Source: Pseudomonas fragi
Lineage (GTDB): Bacteria; Pseudomonadota; Gammaproteobacteria; Pseudomonadales; Pseudomonadaceae
Reading direction: 5' to 3'
Length of the DNA: 64,000 nt
NCBI RefSeq assembly: GCF_900105835.1
Contig: NZ_LT629783.1
Span: 3,494,501-3,558,500, forward strand
Made by a program: the position numbers and the translations under genes. Under the pieces are notes generated by a model. It did not search any database and was not told where the DNA came from. It worked only from the letters and a program-made list of their open reading frames with translations. Of this stretch, positions 7,957-62,206 are shown one piece after another; positions within the stretch are counted from its first letter, which is position 1, and every line of letters starts with the position of its first letter.

Positions 7957-7983
7957 TGGCGCAGACAAGACGATGACTGTCGT
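7957..7983 (+). promoter_or_regulatory. Predicted GbdR site upstream of pchP
   Basis: Direct half-sites TGGCGC at 7957 and TGTCGT at 7978 are 21 bp apart start to start, which is two helical turns and suits an AraC-family activator. The site ends 64 bases before the pchP start. The same arrangement occurs upstream of betT and of the dipeptidase gene. pchP belongs to the glycine betaine regulon in P. aeruginosa (from memory); binding here is inferred. Confidence 0.5.
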
Positions 7984-8047
7984 GCCCAAGCCAAAAACTG
8001 TCATGCAGGTTTGTTAGCGTCGATGCCTTTGACGAGGAGCATAGCTG

Positions 8048-9103
8048 ATGAAACTGACCGCCAAGTTGACCGCATTAACCCTGTGCATGGGGCTTGCCGG
8101 GCAGGCACTGGCCACCGAACTCAAGCACTGGCCCGCCGACCAGGCCAGGCAACTGGACGCCATGATCGCCGCCAACGCGAACAAGGGTAACTTCGCGGTC
8201 TTTGACATGGACAACACCAGCTACCGCAATGACCTGGAAGAAGCGCTGCTGCCGTTTATGGAAAACCGCGGCCTGATCACCCGGGACAGCCTCGACCCGT
8301 CGCTCAAGCTGATCCCGTTCAAGGACACGGCCGACCATAAGGAAAGCCTGTTCAGTTACTACTACCGCCTGTGCGAAGTGGACGACATGGTCTGTTACCC
8401 GTGGGTGGCCCAGGTGTTTTCCGGTTTTACCCTGCAGCAGCTCAAGGGCTATGTGGACGAGTTGATGGCGTCAGGCAAGCCAGTACCGGTGACTTACTTC
8501 GAGGGGGATGTGGTCAAGACCTCCGAGGTGCAGCCGCCCAAGGTGTTTACCGGGCAGGTGGAGCTGTTCAACAAGCTGATGGAGAACGGCATCGAGGTCT
8601 ACGTGATGACCGCCGCCTCTGAAGAGCTGGTGCGCATGGTCGCGGCTGACCCCAAGTACGGCTACAACGTCAAACCGCAGAACGTGATTGGCGTGAGCAC
8701 GCTGCTCAAGGACCGCAAGACGGGCGAACTCACCACCGCGCGCAAACAGATCAGCGCTGGCACCTACAACGAAAAAGCCAACCTGGGCCTGGAGCTGACC
8801 CCATACCTGTGGACCCCGGCCACCTGGATGGCGGGCAAGCAGGCGGCGATCCTGACCTATATCGACCAGTGGAAAAAACCGGTGCTGGTGGGCGGAGACA
8901 CGCCGTCCAGTGACGGCTACATGCTGTTTCACGGTGTGGACGTGGCCAAGGGTGGCGTGCACTTGTGGATCAACCGCAAGGACAAATACATGGCACAGCT
9001 GGAAGGGATGATGGCCAAGAATGCGGCGGCGCAAGCCAAAGAGGGGTTGCCGGTAACAGCGGACAAGAACTGGGTGATCGTCAAGCCGGATCAGATCCAG
9101 TAA
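8048..9103 (+). CDS. pchP: Phosphorylcholine phosphatase
   Basis: 351-residue periplasmic HAD-superfamily phosphatase that releases choline from phosphorylcholine. Residues 1-22 form a signal peptide ending QALA. The HAD nucleophile motif DMDNT is at 53-57, which is Asp31/Asp33/Thr35 after removal of 22 residues and agrees with the numbering I recall for P. aeruginosa PchP. A later GGDTPSSDG loop carries the metal-binding acids. It links to the choline uptake and oxidation genes at 47-60 kb, and a putative GbdR site lies just upstream. Confidence 0.9.
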   Translation: MKLTAKLTALTLCMGLAGQALATELKHWPADQARQLDAMIAANANKGNFAVFDMDNTSYRNDLEEALLPFMENRGLITRDSLDPSLKLIPFKDTADHKESLFSYYYRLCEVDDMVCYPWVAQVFSGFTLQQLKGYVDELMASGKPVPVTYFEGDVVKTSEVQPPKVFTGQVELFNKLMENGIEVYVMTAASEELVRMVAADPKYGYNVKPQNVIGVSTLLKDRKTGELTTARKQISAGTYNEKANLGLELTPYLWTPATWMAGKQAAILTYIDQWKKPVLVGGDTPSSDGYMLFHGVDVAKGGVHLWINRKDKYMAQLEGMMAKNAAAQAKEGLPVTADKNWVIVKPDQIQ

Positions 9104-9107
9104 TTCC

Positions 9108-9194
9108 TGTGGGAGCGGGCTTGCCCGCGATGCAGGCGGCGCGGTCTGCCTGCATGACCACGGCGATGCCATCGCGGGCAAGCCCGCTCCCACA
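9108..9194. repeat. REP doublet (REPIN-like hairpin)
   Basis: Inverted REP cores between the convergent pchP and ilvD genes, followed at once by the ilvD terminator. Confidence 0.9.
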
Positions 9195-9213
9195 AGGGTG
9201 GTTATGTTGCCCA

Positions 9214-9247
9214 TAAAAAATCCCGGCGCATGGCCGGGATTTTTGGT
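9214..9247 (-). terminator. Rho-independent terminator of ilvD
   Basis: GC-rich stem AATCCCGG/CCGGGATT with a 7-base loop. Read on the minus strand it is followed by a run of six T. It lies just after the ilvD stop codon. Confidence 0.85.
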
Positions 9248-9260
9248 CTTGCGTGATGGC

Positions 9261-11108
9261 TTACGGCACCAGCTTATCCAGCAACGCCTTATCACGCACC
9301 GCGCCTTTGTCGGCGCTGGTAGCCAGCAAGGCGTAGGCCTTGAGGGCTGTGGTGACTTTACGCGGCCGCACTTCCACCGGCTTCCAGCCTTTCTTGTCTT
9401 GCGCGGCGCGGCGTGTAGCCATTTCTTCGTCGCTGACCAGCAGGTTGATCGAACGGTTCGGAATGTCGATCAGCACCTTGTCGCCGTCCTGCACCAGACC
9501 AATCGCGCCGCCCGCAGCCGCTTCAGGTGAAGCATGGCCGATGGACAGGCCCGAAGTACCGCCCGAGAAACGACCGTCGGTGAGCAGTGCGCAGGCTTTG
9601 CCCAGACCTTTGGATTTCAGGTACGAAGTCGGGTAGAGCATTTCCTGCATGCCCGGGCCGCCTTTCGGGCCTTCGTAACGGATGATCACGATGTCACCGG
9701 CCTGCACTTCGTCTGCCAGAATGCCGCGCACGGCGCTGTCCTGGCTTTCGAAGATCTTGGCGTTGCCTTCGAACACGTGGATCGACTCGTCGACCCCGGC
9801 GGTTTTGACCACGCAGCCATCCAGCGCGATGTTGCCGTACAGCACGGCCAGGCCGCCTTCTTGCGAGTAGGCATGCTCGACACTGCGGATGCAGCCGTTT
9901 TCACGGTCGTCGTCCAGGGTGTCCCAGCGCGTTGACTGGCTGAACGCGGTTTGCGTCGGGATACCGGCCGGGCCTGCACGGAAGAATGTGTGCACGGCTT
10001 CGTCGTCAGTCTGGGTGATATCCCATTTGGCGATGCCTTCAGCCATGGTCTTGCTGTGTACGGTCGGCAGGTCGGTGTGCAGCAGGCCGCCACGGGCCAG
10101 CGAACCGAGAATGGAGAAAATGCCGCCGGCACGGTGCACGTCTTCCATATGGTACTTCTGAATGTTCGGCGCCACTTTGCACAGTTGCGGCACATGGCGC
10201 GACAGGCGGTCGATGTCTTTAAGGTCGAAATCGATCTCGGCTTCCTGGGCGGCGGCCAGCAAGTGCAGGATGGTGTTGGTCGAACCGCCCATGGCGATGT
10301 CCAGCGTCATGGCGTTTTCAAATGCCTTGAAGTTGGCGATGTTACGCGGCAGAACCGACTCGTCATTCTCGACATAGTACTGGCGGCACAGGTCGACGAT
10401 GGTGCGGCCGGCCTGCAGGAACAGTTGCTCGCGGTCGCTGTGGGTGGCCAGAGCCGAGCCATTGCCCGGCAGGGCCAGGCCCAGGGCTTCGGTCAGGCAG
10501 TTCATCGAGTTGGCGGTGAACATGCCGGAGCACGACCCGCACGTCGGGCAAGCGCTGCGCTCGTACTCGGCAACCTTCTCGTCAGAAGCGCTGGAGTCGG
10601 CGGCGATGACCATGGCGTCTACCAGGTCCAGACCGTGGCTGGCGAGCTTGGTCTTGCCCGCTTCCATCGGCCCGCCCGAAACGAAAATCACCGGGATGTT
10701 GAGGCGCAACGAGGCCATCAGCATGCCAGGGGTGATCTTGTCGCAGTTGGAAATGCACACAATGGCGTCGGCGCAGTGGGCGTTGACCATGTACTCCACG
10801 GAGTCGGCGATGATTTCGCGGCTTGGCAGCGAATACAGCATGCCGTCATGGCCCATGGCAATGCCGTCGTCCACGGCAATGGTGTTGAACTCCTTGGCCA
10901 CGCCGCCAGCGCGCTCGATCTCGCGGGCAACCAGCTGGCCCATGTCCTTGAGGTGGACGTGGCCGGGTACGAACTGGGTAAAGGAGTTGGCAATGGCGAT
11001 GATCGGCTTTTTAAAGTCGGCATCTTTCATCCCCGTGGCGCGCCACAAAGCGCGGGCGCCGGCCATGTTGCGGCCGTGGGTGGAGGTTTTCGAACGATAG
11101 TCAGGCAT
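9261..11108 (-). CDS. ilvD: Dihydroxy-acid dehydratase
   Basis: 615-residue enzyme of branched-chain amino acid synthesis. It dehydrates 2,3-dihydroxy-isovalerate and its isoleucine analogue to the 2-keto acids. It contains an iron-sulfur cluster; cluster cysteines are visible in [11 protein letters not shown] and in [20 protein letters not shown]. Full length for the E. coli-type enzyme. Monocistronic with a clear terminator downstream. Confidence 0.97.
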
Positions 11109-11503
11109 GGAACAACTCCGGGCGGCTAATCAGGTAACAAACAGGGAAGTGAGCTTCTAATGACTGACGGATCACACAGAAAATGACTACGTATCCGCGA
11201 GTTGCCGTAAACGCTGCGGGATCGCCGCGCGCCGGGGCTTGAGCTCATAAACCCGCCGGGGATGATTGGCGATGAATGAGTTGATTCTACACGGCTGGCG
11301 GGCGGAGGGAATGGGCAGGGCAGTTGCTCCTGAACACAAATGAGCGACTCGCAGGCCCAGCACTTGCGGTTGGCGGTTAATCTGGGCGTTGGGCAAGAAG
11401 CAGCCCGACTTTATGTAAGAAAGCACTATTTTGCGAACTGACCGCGCCATTTGCTGAAAATCACGCAATAGTGTTGGGATGATTTTTTCAGTGGGGACTC
11501 TAA
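11109..11503. other. Intergenic region, no gene recognised
   Basis: 395 bases between the divergent ilvD and DUF4153 genes. It must hold both promoters. A 93-codon minus-strand reading frame at 11187-11468 has no recognisable family or ribosome binding site and I do not call it. No attenuator-like leader peptide rich in Ile/Leu/Val was seen. Confidence 0.5.
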
Positions 11504-13189
11504 ATGCTAACCCTCAACCGCTCTGTCAAAACCAGCCTGGCCATTGGCCTGATACAGGGCCTGCTGCTCTGGCTGGCAAGTACGCTGACCGACCCTGGGG
11601 TCAGGGTTGCCCTGGCCACTGTCGTGCTGGTGGGTGGCATCAACCTGCTGCTGTTGGGTGACAACGTGCGACAGCGCGGCACTGCCTGGCTGGTGGTCGG
11701 ACTCACGGTGGTCGTGGCGGCAATCAGTACCTGGGTGTTTGTGGACGGCGACAGGCAGCTGTTCAACAACCGCTGGCTGACGGGCAGCTGGACGTTCTTT
11801 TCCCTGGTGATTGTTTACGTCTGCACGGTGTTCATCCTCAGCTGGCCAACCCGCGAAGGGCGCTATCCGCGTTATGAAGATTTGTTCCGCCATGCCTGGG
11901 ACACGGTGTTTATCGTATTGCTGGGCTTGTTGCTGAATGTGGTGTTCTGGGGGCTGCTGCTGTTGTGGGGCAACCTGTTCAAGATGCTCGGGATCGTGGC
12001 GCTCAACCGGCTGTTTTCAACCGAGGGGTTTATTTGTGTCAGCTCGGCAATGGTGTTTGCCCTCGGCTTGAACATGGGCCGTGAGAACGACCGGATCATT
12101 GGCCTGCTGCGCGGTATTTTGCTGACACTGTGCCGTTTCCTGCTGCCTCTGGGGGCGTTGATTGCGATTGTGTTCACTTTCGCCTTGCCCTTTACCGGGC
12201 TGGAGCCCATCTGGAATACCGGCTATTCGACACCCATCATGCTGTGGCTGGTGGCGGTCAATCTGTTTTTGCTCAATGGCGTGTTCCAGGACGGTGCCCA
12301 GGGCAGCGGGTACCCGGTCTGGCTGGTGCGTGTGGTCGACCTGTGCCTGCTGTGCTTGCCGGTGCTGGTGCTGCTGGCGGGGTATTCAACGTGGCTGCGC
12401 ATTGCCCAGTACGGCCTGACACCTTCCCGGGTGTTGGCAATCCTGCTGGTGGCGGTGATTTTTGCCCACTGTGTGGCGGCCGTCTGGGCGGTAGTGATGC
12501 CGCAGCGCCAGTGGCTATGGAGTGTGCGTCGCACCAACCCGGTGATTGCGCTGCTGACGGTTGCGCTGTTGCTGGCAATTCATACACCGTGGTTCAGCCC
12601 GTTGAAAATCAGCGCCAGCAACCAGGTTGCCCGTGTGCTGAGCGGCAAGACCCCGGTGGATATGTTTGACGCCGATACCTTGCGCTACCGCCTGGGCCAA
12701 CCCGGTGAGCAGGCGTTCAGCGTGCTGCTGGCGCAAGTGGAGCAAGGGCAGGTACTGACGCAAACCGAGCGTCAGGCCTTGCTCAAGCGGCTCAAGAATG
12801 CCGACACCGGTAAAGGCAAACGCGCGCCCAAGGAGAAAGCCCTGGAGTGGATCGGCCCTGAAGTGGCGGGCAGCGAGCAGTTTGAAGCGTCGGACTTTGG
12901 CAAGCAGACCTGCGAGAAACCGGGCTGTGTACTGTGGGCGGTTGATCTGGATCGGGATGGGCAAAGCGAGGTGCTGCAGTTGCCCAAGCGGGGCTGGGTG
13001 AGGTCGCTGGACTTCTTCAAGCGTGATGCGCAGGGTAAATGGCAGTTGGCGGGTACGTTCGAGGTCGATGGCAATGCGCTGGAGCTGATCGAGCAGATCC
13101 GTGAAGGCAAGGCCAAGGTGGTGGCGCCGCGATATCAATCGCTGTTGATCGATGGCGTGGAGCTGAGCCCAAACCCCAAGGCGCAGTAA
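11504..13189 (+). CDS. DUF4153 membrane protein
   Basis: 561-residue integral membrane protein with about ten hydrophobic segments over residues 10-375, followed by a soluble C-terminal domain of about 180 residues. This fits the DUF4153 family, whose function is unknown. The C-terminal part has a Cys pair (KQTCEKPGC) and a VDLDRDGQSE stretch that resembles an acidic calcium-binding-like loop. Stands alone between ilvD and the convergent rlmI. Confidence 0.75.
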   Translation: MLTLNRSVKTSLAIGLIQGLLLWLASTLTDPGVRVALATVVLVGGINLLLLGDNVRQRGTAWLVVGLTVVVAAISTWVFVDGDRQLFNNRWLTGSWTFFSLVIVYVCTVFILSWPTREGRYPRYEDLFRHAWDTVFIVLLGLLLNVVFWGLLLLWGNLFKMLGIVALNRLFSTEGFICVSSAMVFALGLNMGRENDRIIGLLRGILLTLCRFLLPLGALIAIVFTFALPFTGLEPIWNTGYSTPIMLWLVAVNLFLLNGVFQDGAQGSGYPVWLVRVVDLCLLCLPVLVLLAGYSTWLRIAQYGLTPSRVLAILLVAVIFAHCVAAVWAVVMPQRQWLWSVRRTNPVIALLTVALLLAIHTPWFSPLKISASNQVARVLSGKTPVDMFDADTLRYRLGQPGEQAFSVLLAQVEQGQVLTQTERQALLKRLKNADTGKGKRAPKEKALEWIGPEVAGSEQFEASDFGKQTCEKPGCVLWAVDLDRDGQSEVLQLPKRGWVRSLDFFKRDAQGKWQLAGTFEVDGNALELIEQIREGKAKVVAPRYQSLLIDGVELSPNPKAQ

Positions 13190-13194
13190 ACGCA

Positions 13195-13267
13195 GTGGGG
13201 GCGGGCTTGCTCGCGATGGTGGTGACTTACCCCATCGTTCTAATCGCGAGCAAGCCCGCTCCTGCAA
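13195..13267. repeat. REP doublet, degenerate outer ends
   Basis: Inverted REP cores (GGGGCGGGCTTGCTCGCGAT and complement) with a short centre and mismatched outer bases, between the convergent DUF4153 and rlmI genes. Confidence 0.8.
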
Positions 13268-13282
13268 GGAGCGGGCGTTACA

Positions 13283-14479
13283 TCAGCTGTTAGGCAGCAA
13301 ACGGCAGGTGATGCTCTTGATGTAACGGGTTTCCGGGATGGCCGGGTGTACCGGGTGGTCCGGGCCCTGGCCGCCGCGTTCCAGCAGTTGCATGTTGCGG
13401 TCCAGGTGACGGGCGCTGGTCAGCAGGATGTTTTGCAGGTCGTCTTCCGGCAGGTGCATCGAGCACGATGCGCTGACCAGAATGCCGTCCTTGTTGAGCA
13501 GGCGCATGGCCTGCTCGTTCAGGCGGCGGTACGCGCCTTCGCCGTTTTTCAGGTCTTTCTTGCGTTTGATAAAGGCCGGCGGGTCAGCCACGATCACGTC
13601 GAAACGCTCTTCGTTGGCCTTCAGTTCTTTGAGGGCCTCAAACACGTCGCCTTCCATGCAGGTGACTTTCTCAGCAAAGCCGTTCAGCGCTGCGTTGCGT
13701 TCAACCCCGTCGAGGGCGAAGGATGAGGCGTCGACACAGAACACTTCGCTGGCGCCAAAAGCACCGGCCTGGATGCCCCAGCCGCCGATGTAGCTGTACA
13801 GGTCCAGTACGCGCTTGCCCTTGACGTACGGGGCCAGGCGGGCGCGGTTCATGCGGTGGTCGTAGAACCAGCCAGTTTTTTGCCCGGCGATCACCGGGGC
13901 TTCGAATTTCACGCCGTTCTCTTCCAGTGACACCCACTCCGGCACCAGGCCGAAGACGGTTTCAACATAACGCTCAAGGCCTTCGGCATCACGCGCAGCC
14001 GAGTCATTCTTGAACAGGATGCCGCTTGGCTTGATCACTTGCACCAGGGCTGCAATCACGTCGTCCTTGTGCTGCTCCATAGTGGCCGAGGCCAGCTGGA
14101 CCACGAGGATATCGCCGAAACGGTCAACCACCAGGCCCGGCATCAGGTCGGAATCGCCGTAAACAAGGCGGTAGTAAGGCTTGTCGAAGAGGCGCTCGCG
14201 CAGGGACAGGGCCACGTTGAGGCGGTGTACCAGCAGCGACTTGTCCAGTGGCAGCTTGATGTCGCGCGACAGCAGGCGTGCACAGATCAGGTTGTTGGGG
14301 CTCATGGCAACGATGCCCAGCGGCTTGCCGCCGGCGGTTTCGAGTACCGCTTGGTCGCCGGCCTTAAAACCGTTCAGCGGTGTGGCGGCTACATCGATTT
14401 CGTTGCTGTAGACCCACAAGTGGCCGGCGCGCAGGCGTCGATCGGCATTGGCTTTAAGGCGCAGGCTTGGCAGGGACAT
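13283..14479 (-). CDS. rlmI: 23S rRNA m5C methyltransferase RlmI
   Basis: 398-residue SAM-dependent RNA methyltransferase. The N-terminal PUA domain (about 1-75) is followed by an EEHEE region and a Rossmann methyltransferase domain with DLYSYIGGWG (SAM motif I), VIVADPPAFIKRKK (motif IV) and SASCSMHL (motif VI with the catalytic cysteine). This matches E. coli RlmI, which methylates C1962 of 23S rRNA. Divergent from mutM. Confidence 0.88.
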   Translation of the reverse strand: MSLPSLRLKANADRRLRAGHLWVYSNEIDVAATPLNGFKAGDQAVLETAGGKPLGIVAMSPNNLICARLLSRDIKLPLDKSLLVHRLNVALSLRERLFDKPYYRLVYGDSDLMPGLVVDRFGDILVVQLASATMEQHKDDVIAALVQVIKPSGILFKNDSAARDAEGLERYVETVFGLVPEWVSLEENGVKFEAPVIAGQKTGWFYDHRMNRARLAPYVKGKRVLDLYSYIGGWGIQAGAFGASEVFCVDASSFALDGVERNAALNGFAEKVTCMEGDVFEALKELKANEERFDVIVADPPAFIKRKKDLKNGEGAYRRLNEQAMRLLNKDGILVSASCSMHLPEDDLQNILLTSARHLDRNMQLLERGGQGPDHPVHPAIPETRYIKSITCRLLPNS

Positions 14480-14629
14480 GACGTCGCTCCGGGTATTGAA
14501 AAGGGCGCGATTATAGCCTTAGACGCGCCCCGGAGGCGTGGCTGATTCACCGCATTGCGTCGGATCGCGGAGCCAGTGGCGCAGAAATTTCCGTTAGAAT
14601 TGCCAGCTATTCCAGAGTACGGAGCCTCC

Positions 14630-15442
14630 ATGCCTGAATTACCTGAAGTCGAAACCACTCGCCGTGGCATCGCCCCGCACCTTGAAGGGCAGCGGGTCAG
14701 TCGGGTGATTGTGCGCGAGCGGCGTTTGCGCTGGCCGATCCCTGAGGACCTCGACGTGCGGTTGTCGGGGCAGCGTATCGTGCTGGTGGAGCGCCGGGCC
14801 AAGTACCTGTTGATCAATGCTGAAGTCGGGACGCTGATTAGTCACCTGGGCATGTCGGGCAACCTGCGGCTGGTGGAAGCCGGGTTGCCCGCGGCCAAGC
14901 ATGAGCATGTGGATATCGAGCTGGAGTCCGGGCTGGCCCTGCGCTACACCGACCCGCGCCGATTCGGGGCCATGCTCTGGAGCCTTGACCCGCTGAACCA
15001 TGAATTGCTGGTGCGCCTGGGCCCGGAACCGCTAACCGACCTGTTTGATGGCGAGCGGCTGTTTCAGCTGTCGCGCAAGCGTTCGATGGCGGTCAAGCCG
15101 TTCATCATGGACAACGCCGTGGTGGTGGGGGTGGGCAATATTTACGCGACCGAGGCGCTGTTTGCTGCCGGCATTGATCCGCGTCGCGCTGCCGGGAGCA
15201 TTTCCCGGGCGCGCTATTTAAAGCTGGCGATTGAGATCAAGCGGATTCTGGCGGCCGCCATCGAGCGCGGCGGCACCACATTGCGCGATTTTATCGGCGG
15301 CGACGGCCAGCCCGGTTACTTTCAGCAGGAGCTGTTTGTGTACGGTCGCGGGTATGAACCGTGCAAGGTCTGCGGCACCGAGCTGCGTGACGTCAAGCTG
15401 GGCCAGCGCGCCAGTGTGTTCTGCCCGCGTTGCCAAACATAG
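14630..15442 (+). CDS. mutM: Formamidopyrimidine-DNA glycosylase
   Basis: 270-residue bifunctional glycosylase/AP lyase that removes 8-oxoguanine and FapyG. It begins [13 protein letters not shown], where Pro2 is the catalytic nucleophile and Glu3 its partner. The C-terminal zinc finger is intact (C-X2-C-X16-C-X2-C, starting CKVC and ending CPRC). The start ATG at 14630 follows a GGAG ribosome binding site; longer reading is excluded because Pro2 must be exposed after Met removal. Confidence 0.97.
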
Positions 15443-15465
15443 CCACCCGTAATGGGCTGAACTCT

Positions 15466-15552
15466 TGTGGGAGCGGGCTTGCTCGCGATGCAACCACCTC
15501 GGTCGAACGGATCGATCGCAGTGAATCTATCGCGAGCAAGCCCGCTCCCACA
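15466..15552. repeat. REP doublet (REPIN-like hairpin)
   Basis: Inverted REP cores between the convergent mutM and ferredoxin genes. Confidence 0.9.
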
Positions 15553-15572
15553 CAAATCGCATAGACGATGAA

Positions 15573-15872
<300 letters not shown>

Positions 15873-15923
15873 TCAATTGTGCCGCATTGGCGCCCGCAGT
15901 GCACGCGGGCGCCGCTTCAGTGG

Positions 15924-16493
<570 letters not shown>

Positions 16494-51873: not shown

Positions 51874-51893
51874 TTGATTGAACGTTCAATCAA
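51874..51893. promoter_or_regulatory. BetI operator (20-bp palindrome)
   Basis: Perfect palindrome with half-site TTGATTGAAC and complement GTTCAATCAA, in the divergent betI-betT intergenic region. Its position and symmetry fit the BetI binding site known in Pseudomonas and E. coli bet regions. Confidence 0.8.
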
Positions 51894-51929: not shown

Positions 51930-51956
51930 TGCCGTTTTCCTAAGCATGAATGGCGC
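51930..51956 (+). promoter_or_regulatory. Predicted GbdR site upstream of betT
   Basis: Half-sites TGCCGT at 51930 and TGGCGC at 51951, 21 bp apart, the same layout as before pchP and the dipeptidase. It lies 264 bases before betT, with a REP-like element in between. Confidence 0.4.
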
Positions 51957-51988: not shown

Positions 51989-52080
51989 TGGCAGCGGGCT
52001 TGCTCGCGAAGGTCTAACGATACGCACACTAACGGATTAGATGCGGTGCCCTTGAGGCCTTCGCGAGCAAACCCGCTGCC
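51989..52080. repeat. REP doublet, variant core
   Basis: Inverted cores with GGCAGCGGGCTTGCTCGCGAA and TTCGCGAGCAAACCCGCTGCC: a different subfamily (GCAGCGGG rather than GGAGCGGG) from the other doublets in the window. Lies between betI and betT. Confidence 0.85.
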
Positions 52081-52219
52081 TTTGACAGCATTGGTCTGGG
52101 CGGGTCCGGTTTTTTAGCGGTGTCTTTATATCATCCGACCGCCGGTCGCTATCTAAGCGATTGGTCGGGTGGTGCCTTGCCTCAAGTTTTTCTCTCGCGC
52201 TGCCTGGAGCATCCGTGCC

Positions 52220-54214
52220 ATGAGTTCTGCTTCTCTAATAAAGACCCCACCGCAGAAGGTGACGGTCAACGGTTGGGTGTTTTACACCTCCACTGCCTTG
52301 ATACTTTTACTGACTGCCATCCTGATCATCGCCCCCGAAGAAGCGGGCCGCATTCTGGGTGTTGCCCAGGAATGGCTGTCGCGCAGCTTCGGCTGGTATT
52401 ACATGGTGGTGATCGCCGCTTACCTGATCTTTGTGGTCGGTCTGGCGTTTTCGTCCTACGGCAAACTGAAACTGGGGACCAAGCAGGACACCCCGGATTT
52501 CAGCTATGGCGCCTGGGCCGGCATGCTGTTTTCGTCCGGTATCGGTATTTCGCTGCTGTACTTCGGCGCTTCCGAGCCGCTGGACCACTACTTCAACCCG
52601 CCTGAAGGCGTGTCGGGCAGCCATGAAGCGGCGCGTCAGGCACTGCAACTGACGTTCCTGCACTGGGGCCTGCATGGCTGGGCGATCTACGCGCTGGTCG
52701 GCCTGGCCGTGGCCTATTTTGCCTACCGTCACAACCAGCCGCTGGCGTTGCGTTCGGCGTTGTACCCGTTGATGGGCGAGCGTTGGGTCAAGGGCGCAGC
52801 GGGCCATGCGGTAGACGGTTTCGGCATGTTCGTGACCCTGCTGGGCCTGGTGACCAACCTGGGCATTGGCTCGATGCAAGTGTCGTCGGGGCTTGAGAAC
52901 CTGTTCGGCATGGAGCACAGCAATACCAACCTGCTGATCGTGATCATCGTGATGAGCACCGTGGCGACCATCGCGGCGGTTTCGGGCGTTGAAAACGGTA
53001 TCCGTCGCTTGTCCAACCTGAACATCATCCTGTTCAGCGGCCTGCTGATTTTCGTGCTGTTGTTCGGCCCGACCCTGCACCTGCTCAACGGCTTTGTGCA
53101 AAACACCGGCGATTACCTCAACGGTATCGTGATGAAAACTTTCGACCTGTACGTGTACGAAGGCGATAGCAAGAAAACCGAGGGCTGGCTGGGCCTGTGG
53201 ACCCTGTTCTACTGGGCGTGGTGGATTAGCTGGGCCCCATTTGTAGGGATGTTTATCGCGCGCATTTCCCGTGGTCGTACCGTGCGCGAGCTGGTGGCGG
53301 GCGTGTTGCTGATCCCGCTGGGCTTCACCCTGGCCTGGTTGTCGATCTTCGGTAACTCGGCGCTGGACCTGGTGGTTAACCACGGTGCCGTGGAGCTGGG
53401 CAAGACGGCGCTGGAGCAGCCATCGATGGCGATTTACCAACTGCTTGAGCATTACCCGGCGTCGAAAATCGTGATTGGCGTGTCGATCTTTGTCGGCTTT
53501 GTACTGTTCCTGACCCCGGCGGACTCCGGCGCGGTGATGATGGCCAACCTTTCGTGCAAAGGCGGCGACGTGGATGAAGATGCGCCGCACTGGTTGCGCA
53601 TTTTCTGGTCGGCGGTGATCACCCTGGTGACCATCGGCCTGCTGTTTGCCGGCAACTTCGCCGCCATGCAAACCATGGTGGTGCTGGCGGGTCTGCCGTT
53701 TTCGGTGGTGTTGATCCTGTTTATGTTCGGCCTGCACAAGGCGATGCGTCAGGACACCCTGGTTGAACAGGAACAAGCCGAGCTGGCTGCCCGTGGCCGT
53801 CGTGGTTTCAGCGAGCGTCTGACTGCCCAGGACCTGCAACCGACTCAAGCCGTGGTGCAGCGTTTCATGGACAAACACGTGACCCCGGCACTGGAAGACG
53901 CGGCGGCACAATTGCGCAGCCAGGGGCTTGATGTGCAGACCCTGCTGGGCAGCGCCAAGCGGTGCATGGGCGTGCGGGTGGAGATGGAAGAAGGCAACCC
54001 GTTTGTCTACGAAGTCAGCCTGGATGGTTACCTGGCCGCGCCAAGTGAGTCTGAACAGGATGAAGTGCGCAGCCGTTATTACCGGGCCGAGGTGTACTTG
54101 CACAACGGCAACCAGGAGTACGACCTGATGGGCTTCACCCAGGAGCAAATCAGCCGTGATGTGCTCGATCAGTTTGAAAGCCATCGCCAACTCCTTGGCC
54201 GTGTTTATAGCTAA
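52220..54214 (+). CDS. betT: BCCT choline transporter BetT
   Basis: 664-residue BCCT-family proton/choline symporter with 12 expected TM segments over about 20-520. Signature segments: GASEPLDHYFNPP and the TM8 motif with FYWAWWISWAPFVGMFIARISRGRTVREL. The C-terminal cytoplasmic extension of about 140 residues is the osmosensing type of BetT. Divergent from betIBA. The start ATG at 52220 is chosen over one at 52169 for the typical short N-terminus. Confidence 0.93.
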   Translation: MSSASLIKTPPQKVTVNGWVFYTSTALILLLTAILIIAPEEAGRILGVAQEWLSRSFGWYYMVVIAAYLIFVVGLAFSSYGKLKLGTKQDTPDFSYGAWAGMLFSSGIGISLLYFGASEPLDHYFNPPEGVSGSHEAARQALQLTFLHWGLHGWAIYALVGLAVAYFAYRHNQPLALRSALYPLMGERWVKGAAGHAVDGFGMFVTLLGLVTNLGIGSMQVSSGLENLFGMEHSNTNLLIVIIVMSTVATIAAVSGVENGIRRLSNLNIILFSGLLIFVLLFGPTLHLLNGFVQNTGDYLNGIVMKTFDLYVYEGDSKKTEGWLGLWTLFYWAWWISWAPFVGMFIARISRGRTVRELVAGVLLIPLGFTLAWLSIFGNSALDLVVNHGAVELGKTALEQPSMAIYQLLEHYPASKIVIGVSIFVGFVLFLTPADSGAVMMANLSCKGGDVDEDAPHWLRIFWSAVITLVTIGLLFAGNFAAMQTMVVLAGLPFSVVLILFMFGLHKAMRQDTLVEQEQAELAARGRRGFSERLTAQDLQPTQAVVQRFMDKHVTPALEDAAAQLRSQGLDVQTLLGSAKRCMGVRVEMEEGNPFVYEVSLDGYLAAPSESEQDEVRSRYYRAEVYLHNGNQEYDLMGFTQEQISRDVLDQFESHRQLLGRVYS

Positions 54215-54228
54215 GCACTGAGAACTCG

Positions 54229-54315: not shown

Positions 54316-54328
54316 GGACTCGCGGCTA

Positions 54329-55507: not shown

Positions 55508-56349
55508 GCGTCGGCTCCTGCTTTGGCGTCCGGCTGCTTGCAGATACGGTCGAGCATGATGGCCAGCAGCACAATCGCCAGTCCGGCTTCAAAGCCCAAT
55601 GCGATATCGGCCGTGTTCAGTGCGTTGACCACCGGTTTGCCCAGGCCATCGGCCCCTACCAGCGCGGCGATCACCACCATCGACAGCGACAGCATGATGC
55701 ACTGGGTAATCCCGGCGGCGATGCTCGGCATGGCGTGGGGCAGCTCGATACGGGTGAGCAGCTGGCGCCGCGAACAACCGAAGGCCTTGCCGGCATCGAG
55801 CAGCTCATGGGGTACGTCACGGATGCCCAGGTAGGTGAGGCGGATCGGCGCGGCAATCGCAAACACCACCGTGGAGATCAGCCCCGGCACCACGCCCAGC
55901 CCGAACAGGGTCAGGGTCGGGATCAGGTAAACAAAGGTCGGCACGGTCTGCATCAGGTCGAGCACCGGCCGCATAAAGGTGTAGAACATCGGTTTGTGCG
56001 CCGCGAGTATCCCCAGCGGCACGCCGATGATCACGCACACGAAGGTGGCGAACAGCACCTGGGCCAGGGTTTCCATGGTTTCTTGCCAATACCCCAGGTT
56101 GAGGATCAGCAGAAACGACAGCGCCACAAAAACCGTGAGCCCCCATTTGCGCTGGATAAAGTGGGCGAGCAGGGCAATCAGCCCGATAAATACGAAGGGG
56201 TTGAACCAGGTCAGGGTGAAGGTCACCGCGTGGATCATGGCTTCCAGTGTGCTGGCGATGGCATCGAAGATATTGGCACCGTGCTGGGTCAGCCATTCGA
56301 CGAAGCGTGCGATGTAATCACCCAAAGGGATTTTTTGATCAATCAGCAT
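55504..56349 (-). CDS. cbcW: Choline ABC transporter permease CbcW
   Basis: 281-residue permease with about six TM segments and the EAA-type loop (LLDAGKAFGCSRRQLLTRIELPHAMPSI). I chose the ATG at 56349 (MLIDQKIPLG), the usual N-terminus of CbcW as I recall it; an ATG at 56367 would add six residues. Between cbcX and cbcV in the same operon. Confidence 0.92.
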   Translation of the reverse strand: MLIDQKIPLGDYIARFVEWLTQHGANIFDAIASTLEAMIHAVTFTLTWFNPFVFIGLIALLAHFIQRKWGLTVFVALSFLLILNLGYWQETMETLAQVLFATFVCVIIGVPLGILAAHKPMFYTFMRPVLDLMQTVPTFVYLIPTLTLFGLGVVPGLISTVVFAIAAPIRLTYLGIRDVPHELLDAGKAFGCSRRQLLTRIELPHAMPSIAAGITQCIMLSLSMVVIAALVGADGLGKPVVNALNTADIALGFEAGLAIVLLAIMLDRICKQPDAKAGADA

Positions 56350-56417
56350 GGTAGTGAACGTCCGCATGCAGGGAAATTGAAACGGAGCCGGGTGCAGTTA
56401 CCCCCCGGCGTCCGCGA

Positions 56418-57365
56418 TTACTTCGCGAGGCTGGCTTTGACCGCCTCAAGCCCCGGTTTGCCATCCACCGTGGTGACGCCCGCCAGCCAGGTTTCAAGCA
56501 CTTGCGGGTTCTGTTTGAGCCAGGCTTTGGCGGCCGCGTCGGGTTTGATCTTGTCGTCCAGCACCTTGCCCATCAGGGTGCTTTCCATGTCGAGGGTAAA
56601 TACCAAGTTTTTCAGCAGTTGCCCGACGTTGCTGCACGCTTCGGTGTAGCCCTTGCGGGTATTGGTGTAGATGGTTGCCTGGCCATAATTGGGGCCGAAG
56701 AACTCGTCGCCGCCGGTGAGGTATTTCATTTTGAAGCGGGTGTTCATCGGGTGCGGTTCCCAGCCCAGGAACACCACGTCGGTACCTCGGCGCTGGGCGC
56801 GGTCAACCTGCGACAGCATGCCTGCCTCACTCGATTCAACCACCTTGAAGCCGGCATCTTTCAAGCCAAAGGCGTTCTTGTCGATCATGGTCTGGATCAT
56901 GCGGTTGCCGTCGTTGCCCGGCTCGATGCCGTAGATCTTGCCGTCCAGCTCCTTCTTGAACTTGGGTAAGTCGGAGAAGTCTTTGAGGCCCTTGTTGTAG
57001 AGCGCTTCGGGTACGGCGAGGGTGTATTTGGCGTTCTCCAGGTTGGCGCGCACGGTCTCGACGGTGCCTGCGTCGCGGTAGGCCTTGATGTCGTTTTCCA
57101 TGGTCGGCATCCAGTTGCCCAGGAACACATCCATGTTCTTGCCATCGGCCAGCGACTTGTAGGTGACCGGTACGGAAATCATGGTGGTTCTGGTCTTGTA
57201 GCCGAGGCCCTTGAGTATCTCGCTGGTAACGGCGGTGGTGACGGTGATGTCGGTCCAGCCGACATCCGAGAAATTGACGGTGCTGCATTGCTCCGGTTCT
57301 GCGGCCTGGGTGATGACGGGCAGACTCAGCAATGCAGCCAACAACAACGATGAGGAATGTTTCAT
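56418..57365 (-). CDS. cbcX: Choline-binding periplasmic protein CbcX
   Basis: 315-residue OpuAC-type substrate-binding protein with a signal peptide (residues 1-21, ending TQA). FSDVGWTDITVTTAV and the Trp/Tyr-rich pocket sequences are typical of choline-binding ChoX/CbcX proteins. First gene of cbcXWV and divergent from sdaB. Confidence 0.92.
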   Translation of the reverse strand: MKHSSSLLLAALLSLPVITQAAEPEQCSTVNFSDVGWTDITVTTAVTSEILKGLGYKTRTTMISVPVTYKSLADGKNMDVFLGNWMPTMENDIKAYRDAGTVETVRANLENAKYTLAVPEALYNKGLKDFSDLPKFKKELDGKIYGIEPGNDGNRMIQTMIDKNAFGLKDAGFKVVESSEAGMLSQVDRAQRRGTDVVFLGWEPHPMNTRFKMKYLTGGDEFFGPNYGQATIYTNTRKGYTEACSNVGQLLKNLVFTLDMESTLMGKVLDDKIKPDAAAKAWLKQNPQVLETWLAGVTTVDGKPGLEAVKASLAK

Positions 57366-57726
57366 GGATCGACTCCTGTGTGTCCGGGTTGCGGTTTTTC
57401 GATCGAAAAGCCGCAGGTATCAGTTGCGGTCGGGCGATGGTCGGCAGGGGACTGTGCCGGCGCATCTTGCAATCGAGTCGGGACTGATCATGTAACAGCG
57501 AAAATCAAACGCCTACAGGGGGCGTCGCATCCAGTACAGGCAGGGTCGTATCTGATACCAGCGAGGTCGTATCTGGACGAACGAGGCTCGAAAACTGCCT
57601 TTTCCGTGCATCTGCACCCCATAAAACGTCGGGGGCGCTGGCAGGCAAAGGCGGGTCGTAGCTGGACGTTTTTGCCGAGGGCAAACACCCCATGATGCAA
57701 GGCATTGACCCCCGAGGCTCGTGCTC
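57366..57726. promoter_or_regulatory. cbcX-sdaB divergent promoter region with direct repeats
   Basis: 361 bases. It holds three GTCGTA[TG]CTG direct repeats at 57545-57554, 57566-57575 and 57655-57664; the first two are exactly 21 bp apart. Written with one more base (GGTCGT) they are a weaker form of the TGNCGY half-site seen at the other choline genes. Likely controls both the transporter and the serine dehydratase genes, but binding is inferred. Confidence 0.5.
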
Positions 57727-59103
57727 ATGGCTATCAGCGTGTTTGACCTGTTCAAGATCGGTATCGGCCCTTCCAGCTCCCACACCGTAGGCCCGATGCG
57801 GGCGGCGGCGCTGTTTGTGCAGGGCCTGCGCGAGCGCGACAAGTTGCAACGGGTACGCCGTATCGAAGTGCAACTCTATGGTTCGCTGTCGGCCACCGGT
57901 ATAGGCCACGGCAGCGACAGCGCAGTGATCATGGGCCTGATGGGCGAATGGCCGGACGCCATTGACCCGGCGCTGATCGGGCCGCGCATTGCCGAGCTGC
58001 AACACAGCGAAAGGTTATTGCTCGATGGCTACCTGCCGATCCCGTTCGTGTGGGCGCAGGACATGCGCCTGATTGACGAGAACCTGCCGTTTCACCCCAA
58101 CGCCATGACTCTGGTCGCGCACACCGAAACCGCTGAATTGCATCGCGACACTTATTACTCGGTGGGCGGCGGTTTTGTGGTGGACGCGGCACAGGCCGCC
58201 AGCGGTGTGCTGGATATGGATCGCACCGAGTTGCCCTATGACTTCAGCAGCGCCGTCGAACTGCTCGAGCTGTGCCGCACCCATCACCTGAGCGTGGCGG
58301 CCTTGATGCTGGCCAACGAACGCACATGGCGCAGCGAAGACGAAATCCGCTGCGGCCTGATCAAACTTTGGCGCGCCATGCAGGACTGTGTAGAGCAAGG
58401 CTTGAAACACGAAGGCATCCTGCCCGGTGGTCTTAATGTGCGTCGTCGTGCAGCGCGCTTGCACCGCAGCCTGCAGGAACTGGGCAAACCCAACGTCATC
58501 GGCTCGACCCTGAGCGCGATGGAATGGGTCAACCTGTTTGCCCTGGCGGTCAACGAAGAAAACGCCGCTGGCGGGCGCATGGTCACGGCGCCCACCAACG
58601 GTGCAGCGGGGATCATCCCGGCGGTACTGCACTACTTTATGAAATTCAGCGATGAAGTTAGCGAGGCCAATGTGGTGGACTACCTGCTGAGCGCAGCGGC
58701 GATCGGTATTTTGTGCAAAAAGAACGCCTCGATCTCCGGGGCGGAGGTGGGCTGCCAGGGCGAGGTGGGTTCGGCGTGTGCGATGGCGGCCGCGGGGCTG
58801 GCGCAAATCCTCGGTGCCACCCCGGAGCAACTGTGCAACGCCGCGGAAATCGGCCTGGAGCACAACCTGGGCCTGACCTGCGACCCGGTGGGCGGGCTGG
58901 TGCAGGTGCCTTGTATCGAGCGCAACGCCATTGCAGCGGTCAAAGCGATCAATGCGGCGCAAATGGCCTTGCGGGGCGATGGTCAGCACTTTATTTCCCT
59001 GGACCGGGTGATCCGCACCATGCGCGACACTGGCGCCGACATGCACGACAAATACAAGGAAACCTCGCGCGGCGGCCTGGCGGTCAGCGCGGTGGAATGC
59101 TGA
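57727..59103 (+). CDS. sdaB: L-serine ammonia-lyase (iron-sulfur type)
   Basis: 458-residue single-chain L-serine dehydratase: serine to pyruvate and ammonia. The substrate motif SSSHTVGPM is near the N-terminus and the Fe-S cysteines lie in [25 protein letters not shown] and TCDPVGG regions. Its place between the choline transporter and gbdR fits the end of choline catabolism (choline, betaine, dimethylglycine, sarcosine, glycine, serine, pyruvate). The ATG at 57727 is preferred over a GTG at 57721. Confidence 0.93.
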
Positions 59104-59120
59104 CCCCCCCCCCCATTATC

Positions 59121-59207
59121 TGTGGGAGCGGACTTGCTCGCGATTGGATCGCTGCGGTCTGACATCTACACCGCGTCGATGCCATCGCGAGCAAGCCCGC
59201 TCCCACA
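59121..59207. repeat. REP doublet (REPIN-like hairpin)
   Basis: Inverted REP cores (left core with one change, GGACTTGC) between sdaB and gbdR, immediately after a run of C bases at the sdaB end. Confidence 0.88.
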
Positions 59208-59427
59208 ACAAGCCTGTTACTGCTGCATCGGCGCTTTTTCAGCGCACGGCGACCCGTTTTGGCGCACTCGTACTTTTGGTGACATCCTGTAACTGAGCTG
59301 CTCCTACATCCTTCCCACAAGTGCTACCGATGTGCTCAACAGCATCGGTCAGCACCTGTGTACCTGCGTTTAACCGGCGTTTTCCCATCACCCGTCCAGA
59401 CACATTGCGACGTCGTTTTCAGGCTTT

Positions 59428-59445
59428 GTTGAATAGCCATTCAAC
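59428..59445. promoter_or_regulatory. Inverted repeat upstream of gbdR
   Basis: GTTGAAT-AGCC-ATTCAAC, perfect 7-base arms with a 4-base spacer, 106 bases before the gbdR start. It shares TTGAA/TTCAA halves with the BetI palindrome but with wider spacing. A binding site for some dimeric regulator is possible; identity unknown. The rest of the 448-base sdaB-gbdR gap holds only the REP doublet. Confidence 0.45.
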
Positions 59446-59551
59446 TTTAGGCATGGCATTTGCGTTGTCATCTTAAAGCCCCGTGAAACGAGGGTCATAA
59501 CAAGAGCCTGCGCCTGAGGCCATCACCCGCTTTGTGTGAGGAGATACCGCG

Positions 59552-60655
59552 ATGACGTCGTTCAACTCCGGGGTTCAACCCCAGAACCGTACGCCTCAAT
59601 CCATCGGCTTTCTGCTGCTGGACAATTTCACGCTCATTTCCCTGGCATCCGCGATAGAACCCTTGCGCATGGCCAACCAGTTGTCGGGCCGTGAGTTGTA
59701 TCGCTGGAGCACCCTCAGCGCCGATGGCAGCCAGGTCTGGGCCAGTGATGGTCTGCAGGTGACCCCCGACGCCAGCATGCACAAGGCTCCGGCGCTGGAT
59801 ATGGTGATTGTTTGCGGAGGTATCGGTATTCAGCGCACCGTGACCCGTGAGCATGTCTCATGGCTGCAGAGCCAGGCGCGCCAGTCGCGCCGCCTGGGTG
59901 CCGTGTGCACCGGCAGCTGGGCCCTGGCCTATGCCGGCTTGCTCGACGGTTTTGATTGCAGCGTGCACTGGGAATGCCTGGCCTCGATGCAGGAAGCCTT
60001 CCCGCGGGTGGCCATGAGCACGCGGCTGTTTACCCTCGACCGCAGCCGCTTTACCAGCTCGGGCGGCACCGCACCGCTGGACATGATGCTGCACCTGATC
60101 AGCCGTGATCATGGCCGTGAGTTGTCGGCGGCGATTTCGGAAATGTTTGTGTATGAACGCATCCGCAACGAGCAGGATCACCAGCGCGTACCGCTCAAGC
60201 ACATGCTGGGCACCAACCAGCCCAAGTTGCAGGAAATCGTCGCGTTGATGGAGGCCAACCTCGAGGAGCCCATCGACCTGGATGAGCTGGCGGTTTATGT
60301 GACGGTGTCGCGGCGTCAGTTGGAGCGCCTGTTCCAGAAGTACCTGCATTGCTCGCCGTCGCGCTATTACCTGAAATTACGGCTGGTGCGGGCGCGGCAA
60401 TTGCTCAAGCAAACGCCGATGTCGATTATCGAAGTGGCGGCGGTGTGCGGGTTTGTGTCCACGCCGCATTTTTCCAAGTGCTACCGCGAATACTTCGGCA
60501 TTCCGCCACGGGACGAGCGTGTGGGTTCCAACACCGCACAGCAGACCACCCTGGTGCAGATTCCGCAGTCGCTGTTGCTGGCGCCGCTGGCCGGGCCGAT
60601 GTCGGCGTTGAACCAGGCGCGCAATGAGTCGACGTTTGCCAGTGTGAGGCTTTAA
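59552..60655 (+). CDS. gbdR: Glycine betaine-responsive activator GbdR
   Basis: 367-residue GlxA-type AraC regulator. An N-terminal DJ-1/PfpI-like domain (about 15-195) is followed by a C-terminal AraC helix-turn-helix pair (about 235-330, including VTVSRRQLERLFQKYL and GFVSTPHFSKCYREYFG). GbdR responds to glycine betaine and dimethylglycine and activates choline and betaine catabolic genes in P. aeruginosa (from memory). Position beside sdaB and cbcXWV is the standard one. A strong GAGGAG ribosome binding site precedes the ATG. Confidence 0.92.
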   Translation: MTSFNSGVQPQNRTPQSIGFLLLDNFTLISLASAIEPLRMANQLSGRELYRWSTLSADGSQVWASDGLQVTPDASMHKAPALDMVIVCGGIGIQRTVTREHVSWLQSQARQSRRLGAVCTGSWALAYAGLLDGFDCSVHWECLASMQEAFPRVAMSTRLFTLDRSRFTSSGGTAPLDMMLHLISRDHGRELSAAISEMFVYERIRNEQDHQRVPLKHMLGTNQPKLQEIVALMEANLEEPIDLDELAVYVTVSRRQLERLFQKYLHCSPSRYYLKLRLVRARQLLKQTPMSIIEVAAVCGFVSTPHFSKCYREYFGIPPRDERVGSNTAQQTTLVQIPQSLLLAPLAGPMSALNQARNESTFASVRL

Positions 60656-60660
60656 CAGGC

Positions 60661-60720
60661 AAAAGCGCCCTGATCCTGGCCCTCTCCTTCCGGGAGAGGG
60701 TTGGGGTGAGGGGCTTTTGC
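60661..60720. repeat. CTCTCC-type inverted repeat / possible gbdR terminator
   Basis: Stem CCCTCTC-CTTCCG-GGAGAGGG within outer pairing AAAAGC(G)CCC...GGGGCTTTT. Related to the repeat at 6315-6437. It lies just after the gbdR stop and, with the T run that follows, could terminate gbdR. Confidence 0.6.
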
Positions 60721-60727
60721 TTTTGCC

Positions 60728-60985
60728 TTACCCGACCTTGCTCTGCTTGAACTGCGCCAGCCCCGGCAGCAACTGGCGGTCAATCGCCTCGCGCACCGCA
60801 GGCAAGATGGTTGCGCTGCCGGTGTAGAGCTTTTCAACCAGCCCCTTGAGTGCGCGGGCATTGGTCTCGTTCAGCCCGCACACTGCCGCGGTGCAAGCCT
60901 GCTCCGCCGTGCCAGACACTTCAAAGCCCAGCGAGCGCAGTTGGCCAACCAGATCCTGTTCATCAATCAAATCCGCGTGCATCAT
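60728..60985 (-). CDS. Small hypothetical protein
   Basis: 85-residue protein, mostly helical in appearance, with two Cys residues in the middle (EQACTAAVCGL). It begins MMHADLIDEQDLVGQLRSLGFEV, so the start may be either Met. I do not recognise a family. Convergent with gbdR. Confidence 0.55.
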   Translation of the reverse strand: MMHADLIDEQDLVGQLRSLGFEVSGTAEQACTAAVCGLNETNARALKGLVEKLYTGSATILPAVREAIDRQLLPGLAQFKQSKVG

Positions 60986-61220
60986 GACTTTTTATCCTTC
61001 TACAAAGCGCGATCGAAGTTTGATTCTGGTAGGGCTTCGGGCCGGGGGCAAGGATGGTTTGGCGGGATGTCCTGCATGCCTAGCTGCAGGTCGTTTTTGG
61101 CTAAGTGCCCGGCGCAGGGTTGGGCACACTGGGGGCAGTAACATCCTCGATGGTTTGGTCACCGTCCTGCATCACACGCACTTGGCCCCGAATCTGTCAC
61201 GGCAGGTTCGGGGCTTTTTT
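60986..61220 (+). ncRNA. Candidate small RNA ending in an orphan terminator
   Basis: 235 bases with no plus-strand gene that end in a strong plus-strand terminator (61185-61220). The nearest plus-strand gene, gbdR, ends over 500 bases earlier, behind its own possible terminator and an opposed gene. This suggests a short transcript that starts in this gap. The 5' end is not determined. Confidence 0.35.
61185..61220 (+). terminator. Rho-independent terminator, plus strand
   Basis: Perfect stem GCCCCGAA/TTCGGGGC with a 14-base loop and six T after it. On the minus strand no T run follows, so it is not the terminator of the DUF3010 gene whose stop it overlaps. Confidence 0.85.
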
Positions 61221-61626
61221 AACCTTTGAGCAACGCCGCACACGCCGCCTTGAACGCTTCATGCTGGTATTTGTTCAGCGAGGCGGGCAGGTCGAAAGCG
61301 TGTTTTTTGAACTGTGCGTTGAGGGTTTGCGGGGACAGCAACTGCACCTGGCAATCGTCCAGCAACTGGATGATGCCTTCGATCTTGAACGTGGTCGGGC
61401 CACCGGCAAACTCGCCCTTCTTGCTGCGCTTTTTAATGGCGATACGGGTGATGCCGTTGCTTTTCACAAAGGCTGCAAGCTGCGCTGCGAAGGCTTTGAC
61501 GTTGGCAGCCTCGTCATCGTCGTCCAGGGCAATTTTTTTGGTCGCGACAGCCACATGCTCAAGGTCGGGACCGGCCAGGGCAAAGATGGCTTCGCTGCCT
61601 TTGATTTCGATACCGCAAATAGTCAT
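61219..61626 (-). CDS. DUF3010 family protein
   Basis: 135-residue soluble protein beginning MTICGIEIKGSEAIFALAG, the typical N-terminus of DUF3010, which looks like an RNase H-like fold (strand with an acidic residue then a small-residue turn). Role unknown. Another in-frame ATG far upstream (61785) overlaps the LprI-like gene and is rejected. Confidence 0.75.
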   Translation of the reverse strand: MTICGIEIKGSEAIFALAGPDLEHVAVATKKIALDDDDEAANVKAFAAQLAAFVKSNGITRIAIKKRSKKGEFAGGPTTFKIEGIIQLLDDCQVQLLSPQTLNAQFKKHAFDLPASLNKYQHEAFKAACAALLKG

Positions 61627-61669
61627 AAAAACCCTGGTTGATAAGTTGAAACTATTCTTGTGGGAAAGG

Positions 61670-62071
61670 TCAGTCCTGCCCGATCGATTCCAGAAACTCC
61701 GAGCGATCGTCGCTGATGCGCGCCATGCAGTCGTTCTGGGCGATGTTGAACGCTTCGGTACCGGCGGTGGCGGGGAACACGGCAATTGCGCAATCGGCGT
61801 CGCGCTGGTGCAGCCACAAGGCCTGGGCAGTCTTGATCTTGCTCAGGATGTTATTGAGCTGGGTGGCGTTACTGCCGTACAGCGAAGTCATGCGCTCCTG
61901 CAGGGCTTCGTAGTTCTCGCTCAACAACTGCTCGGCCGCATTTTTGCTGAACACCGAGCACGCCAGGGTCTGCCGGTCGTTTTCCACCGCGTCGCACGGG
62001 TTGTAGTCGGCATTTTCAGCTGCATGGGCGCCGCCGGTGATCAATGCCAAGGCCAGGAGAATCGATTTCAT
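61670..62071 (-). CDS. LprI-like (DUF1311) secreted protein
   Basis: 133-residue periplasmic protein: signal peptide 1-17 (ending GAHA), then a helical domain with four Cys (positions near 26, 38, 94 and 115) that would form two disulfides. It resembles the lysozyme-inhibitor LprI N-terminal domain (DUF1311). Divergent from the dipeptidase gene. Confidence 0.7.
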   Translation of the reverse strand: MKSILLALALITGGAHAAENADYNPCDAVENDRQTLACSVFSKNAAEQLLSENYEALQERMTSLYGSNATQLNNILSKIKTAQALWLHQRDADCAIAVFPATAGTEAFNIAQNDCMARISDDRSEFLESIGQD

Positions 62072-62179
62072 TGCCGCTTCCTAATCCATAGTTGGCGCCG
62101 ATTCTGGCTCAAGCGTGGGCCAAAGAACAGCCACGGCGTGCAGGTCATGATTTTGCCGCTGCCACGCTTTGTCGTGGTT

Positions 62180-62206
62180 TGACGCTTTCGGCAATTGCGC
62201 TGTCGC
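62180..62206 (+). promoter_or_regulatory. Predicted GbdR site upstream of the dipeptidase
   Basis: Half-sites TGACGC at 62180 and TGTCGC at 62201, 21 bp apart, matching the pattern at pchP and betT. It lies 95 bases before the dipeptidase start. The expected downstream genes (dimethylglycine demethylase) belong to the GbdR regulon in P. aeruginosa. Confidence 0.5.

Follow-up and report, generated by a model that had tools for sequence, protein, structure and literature searches.

Half-sites at choline-associated promoters

We analyzed 64,000 nucleotides of the Pseudomonas fragi contig NZ_LT629783.1 (positions 3,494,501 to 3,558,500; this whole stretch is referred to hereafter as the window), which carry pchP, betT, cbcX, sdaB, gbdR, and a dipeptidase gene, together with a set of paired direct half-sites in the DNA that precedes several of them (Table 1). 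The genome to which the window belongs measures 5.07 Mb and is close to P. bubulae, P. fragi, and P. psychrophila, with GbdR more than 99% identical. The half-site pairs at pchP, sdaB, and the dipeptidase operon, and two further pairs beyond the window at gbcB and glyA-sox, share one promoter layout; going by their sequence, we consider them very probably to be the binding sites of a GbdR dimer that would act as a class-II activator.

Table 1. Coordinates of genes, half-sites, and predicted promoter elements in the window.
Position	Strand	Feature	Remarks
7957..7983	+	GbdR-type site, pchP	TGGCGC-N15-TGTCGT, 31 nt before putative -10 box
7999..8004	+	Third phased half-site, pchP	TGTCAT; H4 of the array
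8015..8020	+	Putative -10 box, pchP	TAGCGT; predicted from sequence
8048..9103	+	pchP, phosphorylcholine phosphatase	Name from the initial annotation; no NCBIfam match
51874..51893	.	20-bp perfect palindrome	TTGATTGAACGTTCAATCAA; probable BetI operator
51930..51956	+	Motif match upstream of betT	Judged not to be a GbdR site
52220..54214	+	betT, BCCT transporter	TIGR00842 above cut-off; PRK09928 BetT 692 bits, cut-off 695
56418..57365	-	cbcX, binding protein of choline ABC (ATP-binding cassette) transporter	TIGR03414 above cut-off
57523..57570	+	Three half-sites 21 bp apart, upstream of cbcX	CGTCGC 57523, GGTCGT 57544, GGTCGT 57565
57633..57659	+	GbdR-type site, sdaB	GGGCGC-N15-GGTCGT; overlooked by the initial annotation
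57691..57696	+	Putative -10 box, sdaB	CATGAT
57727..59103	+	sdaB, L-serine ammonia-lyase	TIGR00720 above cut-off
59552..60655	+	gbdR, AraC-family activator	NF052371 equivalog, 656 bits, cut-off 480
62072..62098	+	Intergenic exact motif match	Judged chance; matrix rank 6576 of 960,040
62180..62206	+	GbdR-type site, dipeptidase operon	TGACGC-N15-TGTCGC
62238..62243	+	Putative -10 box, dipeptidase operon	TATGCT
62302..63279	+	Dipeptidase gene	Open reading frame and conservation; name from the initial annotation; no NCBIfam match

In the window's own genome, the five promoters present the same succession of elements: a half-site, 14–15 nt, a second half-site, 31 nt, and a putative -10 box. Just beyond the window (where NCBIfam models identified gbcA, gbcB, the serine hydroxymethyltransferase gene glyA, soxB, soxA, and etf genes), the glyA-sox promoter reads TGTCGT-N15-TGGCGT-N31-TACCAT and the gbcB promoter reads GGTCGC-N14-TGTCGC-N31-CAGAAT (locus L081, 10258-10320).

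Conservation was read at the GbdR locus in the best 80 of 582 relatives, named Pseudomonas (betI-betT region readable in 45 of these, cbcX-sdaB region in 68, dipeptidase region in 40), at pchP in the 54 best-scoring loci (240 of 298 genomes had a match; the weak matches L109 and L110 were left out), and at gbcB and soxB in the best 30 matches of 57 genomes each. We use the term clade for L001-L011, whose GbdR is at least 96% identical, a grouping defined by identity and not by a tree; for pchP, it denotes the window together with L129-L132 (PchP 94–96% identical, the next being 89%). The dipeptidase motif recurs in all 40 readable orthologous loci, 112–123 bp upstream of the start, and the proximal half-site is followed by N31-TATGCT in every one of them. 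At sdaB, the half-sites, N15, and the 31-nt gap to the box are kept in 60/60 loci outside the clade and 8/8 inside, and at glyA-sox, the N15, N31, and TACCAT elements are found in 27 of 30 loci, our own included. The gbcB promoter matches GGTCGC-N14-TGTCGY-N31-CANNAT in 30/30 loci (again including our own); with N14 there and N15 elsewhere, the spacing is therefore promoter-specific and conserved, and the 21-bp repeat distance to which the initial annotation had drawn attention is not by itself the signature of these sites.

The five promoters, as found in species that do not belong to the clade, served to train a matrix (16 of the 49 loci for pchP and 3 of the 29 for glyA did not fit and were dropped), which was scored on 960,040 positions in 482 kb. 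It places the five own-genome sites at ranks 1–5, in a test that shares promoter orthology with the training set; the sdaB site ranks fifth, and the 57544 pair upstream of cbcX ranks 95. A composite pattern of the layout matches seven times across the window and a further 18 kb outside it, five of these matches being at the promoters described, against four in 400 kb of background.

We also considered whether an extended spacer, TGNCGCTNTCGGCAATNNNNNTGNCGY, might mark GbdR sites in general, and rejected the idea: in our own genome, it is present without mismatch only at the dipeptidase site, the other 17 of 18 matches having three mismatches. A spacer resembling it is found in the outer pair of the pchP array of some relatives. 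We refer to the two genes after DUF5943 as dgcA and dgcB, no model having passed its cut-off there.

Motif counts and the match upstream of betT

The initial annotation had reported exact matches to TGNCGY-N15-TGNCGY upstream of pchP, betT, and the dipeptidase gene (7957-7983, 51930-51956, and 62180-62206, all on the plus strand) and a weaker GGTCGT-N15-GGTCGT pair at 57544-57570, and all four are present as described. Its estimate of their rarity (0.5 matches expected, three found) was wrong, in that the window holds 11 exact matches, against a mean of 1.79 and a maximum of 5 in dinucleotide shuffles. Across the whole genome, there are 291 exact matches, or ~3.7 per 64 kb, mostly coding, compared with 213 for a reversed-pattern control. 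By a mechanical gene caller, 7/11 window matches lie inside genes; the remaining four (7957, 51930, 62180, and 62072, the last overlooked previously) were taken as intergenic. The caller had itself returned only two intergenic matches because longer open reading frames in other frames cover the dipeptidase region; it labeled 62072, 62180, and 57633 as coding, and these were reassigned by hand using the starts of the dipeptidase gene (62302) and sdaB (57727) and a minus-strand gene at 61670-62071.

Four matches in ~7 kb of intergenic DNA (6.4 kb from the gene caller plus the stretches reclassified by hand) compare with an expectation of 0.13–0.41 (Poisson P 1e-5 to 8e-4), for a motif that was picked after the sites had been seen and a background of a single match: of the 14 exact matches in 400 kb sampled from this genome (8% of it), 13 are coding and one lies in 48.6 kb of intergenic DNA. 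Intergenic DNA hence holds more exact matches than chance would give. With so thin a background and a motif chosen post hoc, counting alone cannot tell which matches are real, and two of the four intergenic ones (51930 and 62072) show no conservation beyond the clade or the genome. No strict match was found 200–260 nt before the dipeptidase gene, as a counterpart of 62072, in any of the 40 loci. A TANNNT box 27–35 nt downstream occurs at only one of the nine window matches other than those at pchP and the dipeptidase operon, this being inside sdaB and at 30 nt.

Could the matches as a whole be a by-product of GC-rich coding statistics, compounded by post hoc choice of the motif? The abundance of the plain motif in the genome and the coding position of 13 of the 14 sampled matches lend this some color, as does the repeat length itself (21 bp being seven codons, which suits codon-phased words). 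Such an origin would account for the seven coding matches and perhaps for 51930 and 62072, but not for conservation in non-coding DNA or for a layout common to five promoters of one pathway, and as a general explanation we think it very unlikely. The betT match poses the narrower question of whether a true GbdR site was recently gained in the P. fragi clade. It is exact in all five readable loci of the clade (L001, L002, L003, L005, and L010), whereas the other 40 of the 45 readable betI-betT regions contain no strict match and one relaxed match. It lacks a -10 box in register, the loci have no in-register pair in common for betT, and its matrix rank is 6845 of 960,040, with a half-site score of 8.8 against 12.0–19.5 at the five good sites. 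Moreover, ~264 bp separate it from the betT start, a distance that includes a palindrome resembling repetitive extragenic palindromic (REP) elements, and it is adjoined by a 20-bp palindrome within a 41-bp betI-betT stretch that is invariant in 22/22 aligned rows. This 20-bp palindrome is probably the operator of BetI; a TetR-type repressor palindrome of this kind differs from the direct repeat and could explain control of betT without GbdR. A recent gain at betT is accordingly improbable in our judgment, contrary to the assignment in the initial annotation.

REP-like palindromes were noted by eye at 51991-52082 (between the match and betT) and 59115-59210 of the window, and at 13579-13664 of L081, directly upstream of the glyA site.

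Phased arrays at pchP and cbcX

Outside the clade, the pchP promoter contains an array H1-N15-H2-N15-H3, followed by H4 and the box. Read with a permissive pattern that was settled on after the fact (any nGNCGn, gap 29–32, TA-box variants), H3 and the box are found in 48 of 49 such loci, H2 in addition in 47, and H1 as well in 45. Within the clade, H1 is seen in 0/5 loci, and H2, H3, H4, and the box are seen in 5/5. Where a conserved upstream anchor was found, 4 nt separate it from the first half-site in 41/42 loci outside the clade and in 4/4 within it. This arrangement fits the removal of exactly one 21-bp unit from the clade, with loss rather than gain suggested by the state of the majority.

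Phospholipase C was tried as a further target and set aside: PF04185 has a single match in the genome, an acid phosphatase; the model for phosphocholine-specific phospholipase C reaches 120 bits against a cut-off of 580 (other families were not tried). The genome has pchP, yet a source of phosphorylcholine was not found via PF04185 or this phospholipase C model.

The second array lies between cbcX and sdaB, where three nGTCGY half-sites at 21-bp spacing are present in 68/68 readable loci. The 57544 pair given in the initial annotation is real. It is of the type described for CdhR, has a further half-site in phase with it at 57523, and is oriented away from cbcX; sdaB has its own site at 57633. 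The study of CdhR (PMC5806209) places the match to its operator sequence GGTCGC-N15-GGTCGC in the cbcX-sdaB region; the 57544 pair has the same core and spacing and differs from that sequence only in the last base of each half-site (T for C).

This near-identity to a footprinted sequence, together with binding of P. aeruginosa CdhR to cbcX upstream DNA in vitro (PMC5806209), raises the alternative that the pair is an operator of CdhR and not a site for GbdR. The same study reports that CdhR nevertheless does not regulate cbcX, and that cbcXWV is induced via glycine betaine and GbdR, carnitine giving no cbcX induction unless glycine betaine is made from it (PMC5806209). A search of the window's genome with the L001 CdhR found no ortholog, the best hit being GbdR itself at 42% identity (as a yardstick, two CdhR proteins of different groups are 82% identical). 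At the locus, cdhR is situated between gbdR and the dipeptidase gene in L001, L003, L004, and L005, and is absent from that position in the window, L002, and L006-L011 (the whole genome was searched for the window, and the other genomes were read at the locus only), which would mean that one small clade lost it either repeatedly or in an ancestor. The cbcX array is intact in the cdhR-lacking window, L006, L007, and L011, is retained in L002 with AGTCGT as its middle half-site, and is likewise present in the four cdhR-bearing loci; since it is kept where cdhR is missing, CdhR probably does not account for its preservation, barring very recent losses. We regard a CdhR operator at this position as correspondingly improbable. 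Somewhat less plausible still is that another GbdR-like AraC protein is the main binder, such as a 48% identical paralog (L221) or a relative of SouR or ArgR. The sites of GbdR, SouR, ArgR, and CdhR are called very similar in the CdhR study (PMC5806209), and our own genome encodes GbdR-like proteins of 48%, 40%, and 39% identity that could share sites, a point that counts against GbdR as the sole candidate. However, L221 adjoins genes for taurine-type ABC and ProP-like transporters and L222 a gene for a HisP-type ATPase, neither being near choline genes, whereas GbdR itself is embedded in the choline cluster.

Comparison of window 60655-62302 with L001 11000-17300 reveals that cdhR is missing along with neighboring genes in the window and seven sister loci. 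The 48% paralog is encoded at C1:487684-488613 of our own genome; its neighbors are the genes for a binding protein of the taurine-type ABC kind and for the ProP-like transporter. A search with cbcX as the query did not find caiX, the next matches being 28% and 27% identical.

Predicted activation by GbdR

The GbdR regulon of Pseudomonas aeruginosa reportedly goes back to work by Wargo in 2009 and Hampel in 2014, and the regulator, its regulon, and the idea of the half-site are already known. In Escherichia coli, AraC occupies araI1-I2 at araBAD, two direct half-sites 21 bp apart of which the proximal one reaches the -35 region. The layout described here is alike, with a different half-site sequence and with an overlap of the -35 region that we infer from the position of the -10 box. 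Given this likeness to class-II AraC sites, and given that GbdR is encoded in the cluster and is known to control pchP, activation by GbdR is the best reading of the five promoters. A GbdR dimer would occupy two direct nGNCGY half-sites 20–21 bp apart, a distance of two turns of the helix; with the proximal half-site ending 31 nt before the putative -10 box, the protein would be positioned over the -35 region, from where it may recruit RNA polymerase in the manner of AraC at I1-I2 when a betaine-type ligand is present.

The P. aeruginosa regulon is alike in its regulator family (NF052371), in pchP and cbcX as targets (PMC3170909, PMC5806209), and in half-sites with a required CG, GbdR binding being abolished when this conserved CG is changed (PMC5806209). 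It differs from the situation in the P. fragi clade, where the pchP array is one 21-bp unit shorter than at most other loci. The initial annotation was right to propose GbdR as the candidate, and conservation and layout support two of its four sites, at pchP (7957) and the dipeptidase operon (62180); the 57544 pair belongs to another, published type, and the match upstream of betT probably does not represent a site of this kind.

Several observations weigh against this reading of the five promoters. When one promoter at a time is left out of the matrix, the ranks become 18 (pchP), 32 (dipeptidase), 48 (sdaB), 711 (gbcB), and 1723 (glyA), from which it follows that the half-sites differ much between promoters. 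If the gap to the box is shifted by up to 12 nt, only sdaB and glyA have a sharp optimum at 30–32 nt; the dipeptidase and gbcB sites rank better elsewhere (18 at -4 and 435 at -9, respectively), and pchP does equally well at +4 and +5 (17 and 13). At pchP, the gap from H3 to the box is 30 nt in 41 loci and 31 nt in seven outside the clade, and 31 nt in two and 30 nt in three of the five loci inside; because most species have 30 nt, the strict N31 count there is as low as 8/54, some of these being chance pairs. The -10 boxes are predictions, found by looking for them, and all conservation counts were drawn from the best-scoring, hence closest, loci. For gbcA, a pair in register occurs in two single loci only, with none shared, and for cbcX, no pair in register on its own strand is shared among the loci. 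In addition, pchP of P. aeruginosa is described as largely dependent on sigma-54 and NtrC, its expression being ~70% lower when sigma-54 is missing, and a second pchP promoter is proposed as the one on which GbdR acts (PMC3170909); these data sit badly with a single pchP promoter of the sigma-70 type. We conclude that the promoter sequences taken together support the layout rule, for which no one promoter is proof.

The array upstream of cbcX, with its different geometry, is probably a target of GbdR as well. We tentatively suggest, as a possibility and not as the likelier outcome, that the rigidly phased arrays (four half-sites 20–21 bp apart at pchP, three at cbcX) hold more than one GbdR dimer, that one pchP unit was lost in the P. 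fragi clade with the pair nearest the promoter register being kept, and that the cbcX array, interpreted until now as an operator of CdhR, is a reversed GbdR array that needs no CdhR.

What is added to the known regulon is modest: the layout of five promoters, the sdaB site, the missing pchP unit of the clade, and a cbcX array that persists where cdhR is absent. A literature search, which did not cover the papers that define the GbdR consensus, did not find the layout, and we make no claim that it is unpublished. The layout rule is testable and separates likely GbdR promoters from the 291 plain-motif matches in the genome, with the consequence for assignment that betT moves out and sdaB moves in. 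The pchP unit missing from the clade would constitute a natural experiment on the number of half-sites that GbdR needs, and the loss of cdhR beside an intact cbcX array would be one on which regulator uses that array.

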